Part shown: positions 8,265-49,182 of the stretch, in pieces
How the letters are laid out: each line of letters opens with the position of its first letter
How positions within the stretch are numbered: the stretch's first letter is position 1
Origin: Streptococcus mitis
GTDB lineage: Bacteria > Bacillota > Bacilli > Lactobacillales > Streptococcaceae
NCBI GenBank assembly: GCA_001560895.1
Contig: CP014326.1
Span: 1,190,001-1,254,000, forward strand
Direction of reading: 5' to 3'
DNA: 64,000 nucleotides
Notes under the pieces: model-generated
The model's database searches: none
Seen by the model: the letters and a program-made list of their open reading frames with translations, nothing else
Told to the model about the DNA's origin: nothing
Translations under genes and position numbers: made by a program

Positions 8265-8288
8265 GGCTCTATAATATTTGTAGTGGGT
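8265..8288 (+). repeat. Left terminal inverted repeat of the IS
   Basis: GGCTCT followed by an AT-rich stretch and TGTAGTGGGT. Its first 13 bases can also pair with 8302-8314 just inside the element (12 of 13), making a subterminal hairpin absent from the right end. Confidence 0.9.
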
Positions 8289-8387
8289 AAATCCCCTATG
8301 GATATTATGGAGCCTATTTTGTTGTAGAAAAAAAGTCCCATAAGATCTATAATGAAAAGCAACCAAACCATCATTAGAAAGAATCCT

Positions 8388-20700: not shown

Positions 20701-20916
20701 CTCAAGTGTAATTGGTTCGATGTAAACCTTGTCTGCAATCTCCTTGTCCGTCATGATGGTGGCAGGGTTTGAGTTAACTAAGACAACCTCATAACCTTCC
20801 TCTTTCAACGACAAGCAGGCTTGGGTCCCAGCGTAGTCAAACTCAGCAGCCTGACCAATAATAATCGGACCAGAACCAATCACCATAATTTTTTGAATAT
20901 CAGTACGTTTAGGCAT
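17740..20916 (-). CDS. carB: Carbamoyl-phosphate synthase large chain
   Basis: 1,058 residues, the full length of the family. Two ATP-grasp halves (about 1-400 and 545-935), each with its G-S-G-P-I phosphate loop (G-S-G-P-I-I-I-G-Q and G-S-G-P-I-R-I-G-Q), and the C-terminal MGS-type allosteric domain. With CarA it makes carbamoyl phosphate from glutamine, bicarbonate and two ATP for pyrimidine and arginine synthesis. Last gene of the PyrR-controlled operon. It has no recognisable Shine-Dalgarno; the end of a long-hairpin repeat lies 7 nt before its ATG, and 447 nt separate it from carA. Confidence 0.97.
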
Positions 20917-20923
20917 AGTTTAT

Positions 20924-21030
20924 GATACAAAGCCCGTAAAGAACACAGTGAAAATAGGAAACTCGGTGCCAACGCCTTCAGCGTCAAGACGATGTTTATC
21001 TTTTTCACACAGTTCTTAGGGCGTGTTCAC
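20924..21030 (-). repeat. Long-hairpin repeat, unit 1 (carA-carB spacer)
   Basis: About 107 bp that folds as one imperfect hairpin: GCCC/GGGC at the base, then TAAGAAC/GTTCTTA, GTGAAAA/TTTTCAC, and an apical ACGC/GCGT. It shares the core AAAATAGGAAA...TTTATCTTTTTCAC with units in the acoB-acoC spacer and lies in the same orientation relative to transcription. It ends directly before the carB start codon. Confidence 0.75.
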
Positions 21031-21054
21031 TTCCGCGAACAATGTATCTTCTCC

Positions 21055-21090
21055 TTTCTATTCGGCAACTCTCGGGTTGCCATTAAATAA
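21055..21090 (-). repeat. Short hairpin module A1
   Basis: TTTCTATTCG and ATTAAATAA flank a GGCAAC/GTTGCC stem. A second copy (21191-21226) has the same flanks but a different, still self-complementary stem. Confidence 0.65.
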
Positions 21091-21094
21091 ATTC

Positions 21095-21138
21095 TCCGAC
21101 GATTTTTTAGAGAAACGATATTTTTCGATAAAAAATCT
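21095..21138 (-). other. AT-rich hairpin in the carA-carB spacer
   Basis: GATTTTTT (about 21101) and AAAAAATC (about 21130) form an outer stem around a smaller dyad (CGATA...TTTTTCGAT). It could act as a partial terminator inside the operon. Confidence 0.4.
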
Positions 21139-21150
21139 AGTGCAGGGAGT

Positions 21151-21177
21151 TTTTAGTTCGCCTGATAGCGACTAAAA
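21151..21177 (-). other. Hairpin with GCCTGATAGC core
   Basis: TTTTAGT (21151-21157) pairs with ACTAAAA (21171-21177) around TCGCCTGATAGCG. The complement of the 10-nt core recurs at 48028-48037 in the acoB-acoC spacer inside an unrelated stem. Confidence 0.5.
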
Positions 21178-21190
21178 GAAACGACCTGCC

Positions 21191-21226
21191 TTTCTATTCG
21201 TCGCCTCACAGAGCGACATTAAATAA
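21191..21226 (-). repeat. Short hairpin module A2
   Basis: Same flanks as A1 (TTTCTATTCG / ATTAAATAA) around the stem GTCGC/GCGAC. Flanks conserved and stem changed with pairing kept. Confidence 0.65.
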
Positions 21227-23434: not shown

Positions 23435-23999
<565 letters not shown>

Positions 24000-24065
24000 G
24001 AAATGTATAGCCAAGCGAGCCCTACTGCAAACAGTATAGACTTCACCCTTCTACTTTATCACGCT

Positions 24066-24096
24066 CCTTGCCTGCCTCACGGGACAGGTTTAAAGG
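24066..24096 (-). promoter_or_regulatory. PyrR-binding anti-antiterminator
   Basis: On the minus strand CCTTTAAACCTGTCC, CGTGAGG and CAGGCAAGG form a stem with base CCTT/AAGG, inner CCTG/CAGG and a loop of the kind bound by PyrR upstream of pyr genes. Together with the terminator it makes a UMP-responsive attenuator. Confidence 0.85.
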
Positions 24097-24114
24097 AATA
24101 TTTAATTATCAATT

Positions 24115-25504: not shown

Positions 25505-25725
25505 ATGAAAGACAAAGAACTCATTACTAATGCAACCCAACTCCTATCCGAGTTAAATAAAAGTTTCCAAAGCTGCAAACAGGGTAGGGCTGATGATATT
25601 CGACTACAAGAGCTGCTTTGGGGATTTTAGAACTTGGAATTTCCAGTTTTCTATTGACAAAATATCCTGAAAGGTATAGGATAGAGGTACTAATACTCGG
25701 AGGTAAGGGAGACATGAACAACTAA
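25505..25725 (+). pseudogene. Decayed small gene with intact promoter and ribosome-binding site
   Basis: A good promoter (TG-C-TATACT near 25466) and AGGAGG lead to ATG at 25505 and a 41-codon frame starting M-K-D-K-E-L-I-T-N-A that stops at 25628-25630. Just before the stop, another frame stays open from about 25618 to 25725 and reads like continued protein (L-G-I-L-E-L-G-I-S-S-F-L-L-T-K-Y). This looks like a frameshift in a formerly longer gene. A second AGGAGG-ATG at 25714 is followed by only two codons and a stop. I do not recognise the family; an immunity protein or small regulator is possible. Confidence 0.45.
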
Positions 25726-25732
25726 GTCTATC

Positions 25733-25751
25733 AAATAAAGAACCTTTATTT
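25733..25751 (+). terminator. Weak hairpin after the decayed gene
   Basis: AAATAAAG / CTTTATTT stem with a 3-nt loop, then a T-rich stretch. Could end the transcript of the decayed gene. Confidence 0.45.
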
Positions 25752-25811
25752 AGTAGATCTTGTTTTTGTCTCTTTTTGTGTGCTCTTTTCATACTAGATT
25801 TTCTAGTATCT

Positions 25812-37621: not shown

Positions 37622-37702
37622 CTTTCTTCTCCAAATAAAATGATGATTCTATTTTACCATAAATATAGGATATTTGTGAATATTTATAAAATGTTTTTCT
37701 AA

Positions 37703-37735
37703 AAAAATCTGATTACATATTGTAATCAGATTTTT
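37703..37735. terminator. Terminator of ccdA-tlpA
   Basis: 15-bp perfect stem AAAAATCTGATTACA / TGTAATCAGATTTTT with a 3-nt loop, 8 nt beyond the thioredoxin stop; works in both directions. Confidence 0.92.
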
Positions 37736-37742
37736 ATCGATT

Positions 37743-46585: not shown

Positions 46586-47629
46586 TTAAATCAACATTGA
46601 GATTGGATTTTCAATCAATTCTTTCAAGTCTTTCATAAACTTAGCACCTGCCATACCATCTACAACACGGTGGTCAATTGTTAAGCCAAGACTCATGATT
46701 GGACGAATGACAATCTCACCATTGACGACAACTGGCTTCTCAATAGTCGAACTGACACCAAGAATAGCTGAGTTTGGTTGGTTGATGATAGGACCAAAGG
46801 ACTGAACACCAAACATTCCCAGGTTACTGATTGTGAATGTTGAATTTTGCAGTTCACTTGGAGCCAATTTACCATCCAAGGTACGGCCAATAACATCCTT
46901 GAAGGCTACGACCAGCTCTGAAAGGCTCATCTTTTCAGCATTGTAAACAACAGGTGTCATCAAACCATTATCCATCCCAACTGCCATCGCAAGGTTGACG
47001 TAGTTATGAGTGATAATAGTCTTGCCGTCTTCTGTCAATGAAGCGTTGATGTAAGGGTGTTTCATAAGGGTCTTCACAACAGCAAGTGAAAGAAGGTCTG
47101 TTACAGTAGTCTTCTTCCCAGTTGCTTCCATGATTGGCTCAAGAACCTTCTTACGAAGAGCCAGCATTTCAGTCATATCAACTTCATAATTGAGTGTGAA
47201 AGTTGGCGCAGTTAGGTATGATTCAACCATACGTTGGGCAATAACCTTACGCATTGGTGTCATTGGAATACGTTCAATTTCACCGTATGGTGTTACGTTA
47301 TCTGGAACTTCTTCCACTTTTTCAATCTGAGCAGGAGACTTGATAGTGTCGTTTTCGATATTTTCAGGAAGCAAGGCCAAAACATCCTTCTTCATGATTT
47401 TACCACGATGACCCGTTCCTTGAATTTCCTGCCAAGCAATGTTATGTTCGAGGGCAATTCGTTTTGCAAGTGGCGAAATGCGAACCACGTTTGTGTCTTT
47501 ATAAGTTTCCACGTCTTCTTTGTGGACACGACCGTTTGCACCTGAGCCAGAAACATCGTAGAGGTTGATCCCTAAATCATCCGCTAACTTTCTAGCTGCA
47601 GGAGTCGCTCTTAGCTTGTCATCAGCCAT
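46586..47629 (-). CDS. acoC: E2 acyltransferase without a lipoyl domain (AcoC)
   Basis: 347 residues. It opens directly with a peripheral-subunit-binding domain (R-A-T-P-A-A-R-K-L-A, about 7-42) and then a second one (I-S-P-L-A-K-R-I-A, about 50-86), followed by the catalytic acyltransferase core (about 120-347) with His320 and Asp324 in D-H-R-V-V-D-G. The N-terminal lipoyl domain of ordinary E2 proteins is absent; it is on E3. ATG at 47627-47629 with GGAGAGG. 560 nt of repeats separate it from acoB. Confidence 0.94.
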   Translation of the reverse strand: MADDKLRATPAARKLADDLGINLYDVSGSGANGRVHKEDVETYKDTNVVRISPLAKRIALEHNIAWQEIQGTGHRGKIMKKDVLALLPENIENDTIKSPAQIEKVEEVPDNVTPYGEIERIPMTPMRKVIAQRMVESYLTAPTFTLNYEVDMTEMLALRKKVLEPIMEATGKKTTVTDLLSLAVVKTLMKHPYINASLTEDGKTIITHNYVNLAMAVGMDNGLMTPVVYNAEKMSLSELVVAFKDVIGRTLDGKLAPSELQNSTFTISNLGMFGVQSFGPIINQPNSAILGVSSTIEKPVVVNGEIVIRPIMSLGLTIDHRVVDGMAGAKFMKDLKELIENPISMLI

Positions 47630-47650
47630 GACCTCTCCAATTCTATTTAT

Positions 47651-47754
47651 GATACTAAGGGCGTTTAAAAGCGATAGAAAAATAGGAAATCGACGATGGC
47701 TTCGATGAAGCCAAGGAGATTTATCTTTTTTCCGAGCTTTTAGCCCGTGTTCGA
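47651..47754 (-). repeat. Long-hairpin repeat, unit 3 (acoB-acoC spacer)
   Basis: Pairing segments: GGGC/GCCC, TAAAAGC/GCTTTTA, GAAAAA/TTTTTC, AAATC/GATTT, and apical TGGCTTC/GAAGCCA with loop GAT. Conserved core AATAGGAAA, GACGA, AAGG and TTATCTTTTT. Confidence 0.85.
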
Positions 47755-47760
47755 ATATAA

Positions 47761-47865
47761 GATATTAAGGACGCAGAGGGCAATGAAAAAATAGGAGATT
47801 GACGATGTGTTCGATGAACACAAGGAAATCTATCTTTTTTTTCGCAGACCTCCGTCCGAATTCAA
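47761..47865 (-). repeat. Long-hairpin repeat, unit 4 (acoB-acoC spacer)
   Basis: Same layout with different paired bases: GGACG/CGTCC, GAGG/CCTC, GAAAAAA/TTTTTTC, GATT/AATC, apical TGTGTTC/GAACACA with loop GAT. Confidence 0.85.
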
Positions 47866-47871
47866 TTAAAT

Positions 47872-47977
47872 GATACTAAGGGCGTCAAAAGTCAAAGTGA
47901 AAATAGGAAACTTGACGAAGAAACTTTAGTTTCTAGGAAAGTTTATCTTTTTCACACAGACTTTAGCCCGTGTTCAA
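47872..47977 (-). repeat. Long-hairpin repeat, unit 5 (acoB-acoC spacer)
   Basis: GGGC/GCCC, AAAGTC/GACTTT, GTGAAAA/TTTTCAC, AAACTT/AAGTTT, apical AGAAACT/AGTTTCT. Nearest in sequence to unit 1 of the carA-carB spacer. Confidence 0.85.
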
Positions 47978-48189
47978 CTCTACAAGTAACTTGGACACGA
48001 AACGCATCTCAAGTTACTACGGTTGCCGCTATCAGGCGGACAACCTAGTAGACTTACTAATTCATTCGTCGAATATTATCGATTCGACTCACTCATGTCG
48101 CAACTCTTCAAATCACTTGAATACAACACGTATCTCAAGTTACTAAAGTTAAAAAATCAAATATTTTACATAATTTAATTTATGTGATT
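47978..48189 (-). other. Hairpin-rich remainder of the acoB-acoC spacer
   Basis: ATCTCAAGTTACTA occurs twice (near 48006 and 48133). GGTTG/CAACC (48021-48025, 48041-48045) encloses the GCTATCAGGC core shared with 21160-21169, and GTCGAAT/ATTCGAC forms another small stem near 48070-48090. No gene. Confidence 0.6.
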
Positions 48190-49182
48190 TTATTCTTTGT
48201 TATATGTCTTACGGATTGCTTCTTTAATGCTTTCAATGGTTGGAATCATTGCATTCTCTAGGTTTTGTGCATAAGGCATTGGCACATCTTCTCCTGCGCA
48301 ACGGCGGATTGGTGCATCTAGATAATCAAATGCTTCTGATTCTGAAATAATAGCTGAAATCTCTCCGATATAGCCGCTTGTTTTGTGGGCATCGTTGACC
48401 AGAACAACCTTACCAGTCTTCTTAACTGAGTTAATGATGATATCCTTATCAAGCGGAACAAGGGTACGTGGGTCAACAATTTCAACTGAAATGCCTTCTT
48501 CTGCTAATTCTTCAGCAGCTTGAACCACACGGCGAAGCATTTTTCCATAAGTAACAACTGTTACATCCGTACCTTCACGTTTGATTTCCCCAACTCCAAG
48601 TGGAATCGTGTAGTCTGGATCAACTGGCACTTCCCCTTTTTGGTTAAATTCTGACTTGTACTCAAGAATGATAACAGGGTTATTATCACGGATAGAAGAC
48701 TTAAGCAATCCTTTCATATCCGCAGGTGTACCTGGTGCCACAACCTTAAGTCCTGGAATGTGAGTAAACCAAGACTCTAGTGATTGCGAGTGCTGGGCTG
48801 CAGAACCAACTCCGTTACCTGCTGCACAACGGACAGTCATTGGAACCTGACCTTTACCACCAAACATATAACGTGTTTTGGCAGCTTGGTTGACGATATT
48901 GTCCATGGCAATAACCGAGAAATCCATGAAGGTCATATCGACGATTGGACGAAGCCCTGTCATGGCTGCTCCTGCTGCTGCACCTGAGATAGCAGCCTCA
49001 GAAATTGGACAGTCACGAACACGTTCTGGACCAAATTCTTCAAGCATTCCAACAGATGTTCCGAAGTCTCCTCCGAAGACACCGACATCTTCTCCCATCA
49101 AGAACACATTTTTATCGCGACGCATTTCCTCAGACATAGCAAGGATAATGGTGTCACGGAACGACATTGTTTTTGTTTCCAT
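48190..49182 (-). CDS. acoB: Dehydrogenase E1 beta subunit (AcoB)
   Basis: 330 residues. Transketolase-type pyrimidine-binding domain (V-F-L-M-G-E-D-V-G with the conserved Glu that activates thiamine diphosphate) and the C-terminal domain. Forms the alpha2beta2 E1 with AcoA, which decarboxylates pyruvate or acetoin. The annotation as acetoin or pyruvate dehydrogenase is not settled by sequence. Starts 15 nt after the acoA stop. Confidence 0.94.
   Translation of the reverse strand: METKTMSFRDTIILAMSEEMRRDKNVFLMGEDVGVFGGDFGTSVGMLEEFGPERVRDCPISEAAISGAAAGAAMTGLRPIVDMTFMDFSVIAMDNIVNQAAKTRYMFGGKGQVPMTVRCAAGNGVGSAAQHSQSLESWFTHIPGLKVVAPGTPADMKGLLKSSIRDNNPVIILEYKSEFNQKGEVPVDPDYTIPLGVGEIKREGTDVTVVTYGKMLRRVVQAAEELAEEGISVEIVDPRTLVPLDKDIIINSVKKTGKVVLVNDAHKTSGYIGEISAIISESEAFDYLDAPIRRCAGEDVPMPYAQNLENAMIPTIESIKEAIRKTYNKE

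Follow-up and report, generated by a model that had tools for sequence, protein, structure and literature searches.

A Streptococcus-wide family of palindromic hairpin repeats in the acoB-acoC gap of Streptococcus mitis, with a subset of copies that probably bridges split ribosome-binding sites

The gap between acoB and acoC of Streptococcus mitis, in the window of 64,000 nucleotides analysed here (contig CP014326.1, positions 1,190,001 to 1,254,000), contains three tandem hairpin units whose arms change together, which raises the question of what these units are and on which nucleic acid their complementarity is kept. The sequence check bears out the initial annotation in placing there three units of about 105 nt with a common layout and spacing, and in counting five units in the window, the other two being located in the carA-carB gap (Table 1). 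The flanking genes encode E1-beta (48190-49182) and E2 (46586-47629) of a 2-oxoacid dehydrogenase complex on the - strand, and their protein matches fit 'aco' and 'pdh' alike. The units had been described as lying in the same orientation; they are alike among themselves but run antisense to this - strand operon. Folding is strong on the + strand (z -5.0, -4.9 and -4.4 for units 1-3, with 0 of 200 dinucleotide shuffles as good) and also good on the - strand (z -5.0, -3.5 and -3.4, with 0, 1 and 0 of 200 shuffles as good). The units belong to a Streptococcus-wide family of palindromes of about 105 nt, of which a subset probably bridges split ribosome-binding sites; the aco array is most likely a tolerated spacer.

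Table 1. Repeat units of the window and the translation signals next to them.
Feature	Position	Strand	Basis and remarks
Repeat unit 1	47651..47754	+	model match 105.0 bits; GATAC end 21 nt from acoC start codon
Repeat unit 2	47761..47865	+	model match 95.4 bits
Repeat unit 3	47872..47977	+	model match 105.7 bits
acoC Shine-Dalgarno, GGAGAGG in mRNA, intact, between unit 1 and start codon 47627-47629	47632..47638	-	read from sequence
Unit parting carB start codon (20914-20916) from its Shine-Dalgarno	20924..21030	+	model match 84.8 bits, layout, carB identity
Fifth unit, carA-carB gap, away from start codons	21227..21329	+	model match 80.0 bits
carB Shine-Dalgarno, AAAGGAG in mRNA	21051..21057	-	predicted fold of carB leader
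GATACA of carB mRNA, just 3' of Shine-Dalgarno	21043..21048	-	predicted fold

Each unit is an ordered series of paired modules: A-y-GA(T)AC, the arms P1, P2 and P3 (ends AAAA), a bulged U, AGG, the arm P4, the internal loop GACGA, the apical hairpin, the loop AGGA, the mirror arms with ATC-TTTTT, and the end GTTC-RA-z-T. The core AAAATAGGA ... TATCTTTTT is conserved, the outer arms vary but stay complementary, and the apical hairpin is variable. The ends A-y-GATAC and GTTC-RA-z-T pair, y and z being mostly complementary (A/T, T/A, G/C; flanks judged by eye, without statistics), and the terminal stem occurs as GATAC/GTTC, GATGC/GCTC, GATAT/ATTC and GATGT/ACTC; terminal inverted repeats, a general feature of MITEs, are thus present as ends that pair with covariation. 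The paired changes reported for the arms of the first three units recur among 16 copies of the same genome as double changes at 21 of 28 predicted pairs, and the statistical test of covariation that had been proposed gives, for 69 diverse copies, a score of 0.521 versus 0.154 (sd 0.007) in shuffled alignments, with 0 of 500 shuffles as high. Controls with slid partners score at most 0.138, the tested structure being partly derived from the same sequences, which favours actual over slid pairings. In the same 69 copies, 25 of 31 pairs show double changes and 92.4% of 2106 cells are paired, versus 72.4% after shuffling and 33.0-55.6% with slid partners. The carB loci alone (35 distinct rows, in an alignment fitted to the model) have double changes at 20 of 28 pairs, and in these rows one of five covariation measures, further pair types, is not above shuffles (149/500). 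Long variants of about 150-210 nt, with extra hairpins in loops or bulges, were also seen (L017, L020, L033, L042).

These units are members of a real hairpin repeat family, genus-wide in Streptococcus and with divergent relatives in other Lactobacillales. The source genome has 20 covariance-model matches, and a 351-bp query finds 14 places in it by BLAST, the query itself included. Matches to the model (R1) are present in 56 of 59 Streptococcus genomes, with 0 to 67 per genome under strict filters that drop weak matches (G022 counts as 0, yet has a short weak match before dnaJ); S. pneumoniae 19F has 17 and S. sanguinis BCC31 has 12. A pattern scan of genome contigs gave at least 117 stretches, and 77 of the 80 matches listed are from Streptococcus, the species listed including sanguinis, suis, ratti, mitis, oralis, infantis, vestibularis, pseudoporcinus and acidominimus; the three stretches from outside the genus among these 80 do not match the model, nor do two azizii loci. 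Across Lactobacillales, 50 of 198 genomes in 10 of 54 genera have matches, 27 of the 50 being Streptococcus and some of the others weak enough for chance. In six genomes from outside Streptococcus the copies are divergent (about 30-60 bits) and keep the core AAAATAGGA...TATCTTTTT, and divergent copies in other families of the order (G063, G071, G188, G194, G195; L173-L202) include several that are arranged in tandem, with about 118-123 bp from one copy to the next.

Streptococcal copies often have the GATAC end close against a gene. Judged by start codons taken from ORFs, which are rough except at carB and dnaJ, 29 of 150 hits have this end at most 9 nt from an ATG start and 31 have it as close to a stop codon, the corresponding numbers for the GTTC end being 0 and 2; after de-duplication to 78 hits the figures are 18 and 16 for the GATAC end and 0 and 1 for the GTTC end. 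All 29 start-adjacent hits have a Shine-Dalgarno-like motif within 45 nt past the far end of the element and none between the element and the AUG. Where the element ends 10-30 nt from the start, the motif is in the gap in 13 of 16 cases and beyond the element in 0 of 16, the background for a motif beyond elements not near a start being 11 of 103. Of the 20 copies in the source genome, 4 split a ribosome-binding site in this manner, none of them one of the three aco units, and 4 lie behind a stop codon. Among 16 classed copies of S. pneumoniae 19F (L086, G001), five split a ribosome-binding site and two follow stop codons. The five genes include dnaJ and carB, recognised by the first residues of their products and with starts equal to those of the orthologue survey below; the other three are presumably parC, deoD and prmA. 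None of 29 loci from other Lactobacillales families was classed as split, in a rough count in which the strand of some was wrongly guessed.

Two of these sites can be followed across the genus. At dnaJ the element is present in 46 of 59 genomes, 4-7 nt 5' of the AUG and always antisense, and AAAGGA lies one nucleotide from its other end in 21 genomes and 56-67 nt away in three. The carB junction was read in 48 of the 59 genomes, the other 11 having no match to the query, and carries the element in 30, 6-8 nt 5' of the AUG, all antisense and with AAAGGA 16-53 nt beyond. No Shine-Dalgarno is found between element and AUG at the 46 dnaJ and 30 carB sites. Of the remaining 18 carB junctions, 12 are compact, with 5-13 nt from Shine-Dalgarno to AUG, others hold a different, longer sequence (G019, G025, G027, G041, G048) and one received no call (G016). 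On a 360-nt carB tree, built without support values, occupancy follows clades, and in one clade the element is absent at carB and present at dnaJ. At carB, the element at one and the same site differs between species, so that replacement happens. Empty carB junctions also exist, with flanks too diverged to place the insertion and with no evident target-site duplication. Two further features of this leader were observed: before carB of one genome (L224, G059) the compact AAAGGATTTGTATCATCATT-ATG resembles the scar of an element loss, and directly 5' of the carB Shine-Dalgarno (window ~21058-21090; L203-L250) there is a stem-loop whose loop resembles CUGUGAG or CAGAGAG, seen by eye in many of the 48 genomes, the compact ones included.

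In the leaders that carry the element, the linear distance from Shine-Dalgarno to AUG is 86-179 nt at carB and dnaJ, and the fold that may bridge it was computed with both signals held single-stranded. In the predicted fold of the source-genome carB leader, 134 nt are reduced to 9 unpaired nt, and the GATACA listed in Table 1 pairs with TGTATC right before the AUG (+ strand 20924-20929), closing the junction. A single helix with 3-13 nt left is predicted for 24 of 30 carB and 25 of 46 dnaJ leaders; shuffled inserts give this in 85 of 600 and 148 of 920 cases, respectively. The nucleotides left number 10-16 in all 30 carB leaders, with shuffle medians of 17 for carB and 15 for dnaJ; more than 13 nt are left in 21 of 46 dnaJ leaders (19-24 nt in 18 of the 46), which counts against bridging there. 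Since shuffled inserts fold too, spacing tests at a single locus are weak and only the pooled comparison is informative. Free folding of the 30 carB leaders leaves the Shine-Dalgarno unpaired in 13; in the other 17 part of it is paired, which may reflect regulation or may be evidence against the bridging model. The defining feature of a split site, a structure that cuts the spacing between Shine-Dalgarno and AUG, is thus present by position and in predicted folds, at dnaJ in part. The dnaJ and carB genes may have ribosome-binding sites that are split in the manner of phage T4 gene 25 and bridged, in their case, by a dispersed repeat. Position, conservation and predicted fold suggest that at both genes the folded transcript most likely joins the two halves of the ribosome-binding site and that translation at such sites would need the hairpin. 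Counting against this are the small number of splitting copies in the source genome, the aco units and the 29 loci from other families, where no site is split, and the lack of a significant G-U excess on the mRNA strand. On a wider reading, which has about an even chance of being right, the family has repeatedly built split sites in housekeeping genes across the genus: the ribosome would skip more than 100 nt, and the hairpin would be harmless on arrival and then become indispensable, leaving room for regulation by refolding.

The suggestion of a structured, possibly mobile element agrees with the strong fold, the covariation and the dispersed and tandem copies. The units would act like a non-autonomous, slowly moving DNA repeat, to judge from copies that are scattered or in tandem and from sites that, depending on the species, are occupied, empty or filled by a different copy. 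The same facts, namely the dispersed and tandem copies in widely varying numbers per genome and the single site that holds different elements across species and is empty in others, also fit a purely parasitic, MITE-like repeat that inserts preferentially at the borders of genes and persists between Shine-Dalgarno and start codon because, folded on itself, it does no harm, with no host benefit or regulation and with arms kept complementary through a folded single-strand DNA intermediate. The occurrence in both orientations and the Watson-Crick purity without strand bias described below speak for such a parasite as well, while the positions held across large clades and the lack of an evident target-site duplication in the (diverged) flanks speak against it; it is credible, though not quite to the point of an even chance.

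Orientation and mismatches bear on the strand at which the arms are maintained. The 150 hits comprise 73 antisense, 41 sense, 13 convergent and 3 divergent copies and 20 at locus edges, according to crude ORF calls with orthologues included and with antisense and sense referring to co-directional gene pairs. Non-Watson-Crick pairs make up 2-3% within helices. On the mRNA strand, the ratio of G-U to A-C, counted in helix-interior pairs with the conserved G-U left out, is 2:5 in sense copies, 15:9 in antisense copies, 6:4 at carB loci and 18:11 at dnaJ loci, none of them significant. On the + strand of the element, A-C exceeds G-U (27:12, p 0.02, the copies not being independent), an excess that goes with the majority of copies being antisense. 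Of 372 pairs in the stems of 17 tRNAs from these loci, 41 are G-U, a control that is biased because the tRNA finder does not admit A-C. Since G-U is about as rare as A-C and the copies occur in both orientations, covariation does not establish selection on a one-strand RNA. The statement of the initial annotation that covariation means selection on RNA or single-strand DNA structure is therefore retained for the covariation, and its single-strand DNA clause fits, while the RNA part holds only partly. What is kept is complementarity itself, whether in the DNA or on both strands, with an RNA signal that is at most weak; for the arms, DNA-level upkeep explains the data no worse than RNA selection does.

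Such upkeep might be purely mutational, through template switching between the arms of the palindrome or exchange among copies, without selection on the fold. In helices 1-4 of the 69 copies double changes far outnumber single-sided ones, and apical hairpins recur among copies with different outer arms, as this would predict; these processes should, however, erase asymmetric bulges and internal loops, yet those beside AGG/UCU and GACGA/AGGA are well conserved, which makes this explanation unlikely.

Some copies are transcribed, as three small ORFs that were published from Ribo-RET data for S. pneumoniae D39 (rio26, rio27 and rio28, in the part of PMC9426450 that was available) resemble the hairpin repeats by eye. 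Rather than being genes, the three ORFs may stem from the structure of the repeat or from initiation inside it, and published small ORFs inside such repeats deserve a second look. At its gathering score Rfam matches none of the five units of the window, and at 12 pneumococcal loci it gives one match, group-II-D1D4-3 (L171:1022-1196), which overlaps a repeat copy by 25 nt. A cis-acting element that works in operon mRNA on one strand, as a processing site, decay barrier, terminator or thermosensor, agrees with the strong fold and covariation, with these transcribed copies and with the hits close behind stop codons, but it is improbable given the two orientations, the lack of a G-U excess and the lack of an Rfam family at the window units.

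At the acoB-acoC junction itself the ribosome-binding site of acoC is intact, so the split-site mechanism does not apply. The number of units at this junction, recognised elsewhere by the same start of the acoC protein, is three model matches in S. cristatus A53 (L070), two in S. sanguinis KO16 (L062) and in strain HMSC078D09 (L052), and one in strain Marseille-Q0941 (L050). The aco array is most likely a tolerated, variable structured spacer, which at most would tune mRNA processing or decay. A second modular repeat, of about 150 nt and with several hairpins, adjoins the first by eye (window ~47990-48170 and 21090-21200; L013, L009) and is seen at aco, car, grpE-dnaK-dnaJ and pnp, with motifs like CGCTAT..GGC, TTACTA and CGTCG. 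Elsewhere in the window Rfam matches SpF43 (25689-25787), Srn266 (8265-8375), SpF36 (37691-37739) and a PyrR binding site (23968-24100).

In the titles, abstracts and text passages covered, which took in few subscription journals, no prior account of the hairpin family or of a repeat splitting ribosome-binding sites was found, and the core sequence strings led to one relevant source, the Ribo-RET list in the available part of PMC9426450. The family offers a target for a covariance model outside the pneumococcal repeats BOX, RUP and SPRITE, being set apart from the last two by description. BOX is built of boxA, boxB and boxC modules. RUP, of about 107 bp, is alike in length, but it has a mean GC of 27.5% and is rare outside S. 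pneumoniae, while the hairpin repeats have 40.7% and occur in 56 of 59 genomes. Among other palindromes, EFAR are miniature repeats of a Lactobacillales genome that insert into stem-loops, and ERIC and NEMIS are transcribed intergenic repeats of about 100-160 bp found in both orientations; we know of no ERIC or NEMIS copy between a Shine-Dalgarno and an AUG. Their comparison with the hairpin repeats, and in particular the likeness of EFAR, is by description and not by sequence. EFAR repeats of Enterococcus faecalis are named in PMC3733652, and ERIC and NEMIS in PMC2267715 and PMC3733652, in the parts of these sources that were available.

SPRITE had been indicated as the known family to be compared first. 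In the accessible text of PMC3049150 it consists of an 18-bp duplex and a U tract, with 28.1% GC and 30 copies, 15 of them between convergent genes, and is nearly absent from S. sanguinis. Both are structured intergenic repeats, short and interspersed, in mitis-group streptococci, and both have AAAA/TTTT in the stem and, behind a hairpin, a stretch rich in U; the hairpin repeat differs in its paired ends and in its 17 matches, against the 30 SPRITE copies, in one pneumococcal genome (PMC3049150). The identification was rejected, by description and not by sequence, on copy number, GC content (mean 40.7%, range 29-50%, n=132), species distribution (12 model matches in S. sanguinis BCC31) and gene context: for S. 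pneumoniae 19F, crude ORF calls that ignore short repeat-overlapping ORFs show 0 of 12 loci as convergent, and 13 of 130 classed hits are convergent overall.

The closest systems in terms of function are the split ribosome-binding sites, so far known from few single genes. The copies at dnaJ and carB may add a natural series with several genes, tens of species and compact relatives as controls, in which one could ask what size of hairpin a ribosome can bypass at initiation and in what way a mobile repeat enters a translation signal without breaking it. In genes 25 and 38 of phage T4 the split sites were tested, with the spacing reduced from 27 to 11 and from 22 to 5 nt, as given in the available part of PMC3014915, and in E. 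coli thrS a long hairpin is accommodated between Shine-Dalgarno and AUG, according to the portion of PMC3936740 at hand. The common trait is a structure between the two signals that shortens their spacing (PMC3014915, PMC3936740); the T4 cases concern single genes with short hairpins and experimental tests, whereas the repeats described here exceed 100 nt and recur, with a predicted fold, before several genes of many species (PMC3014915).
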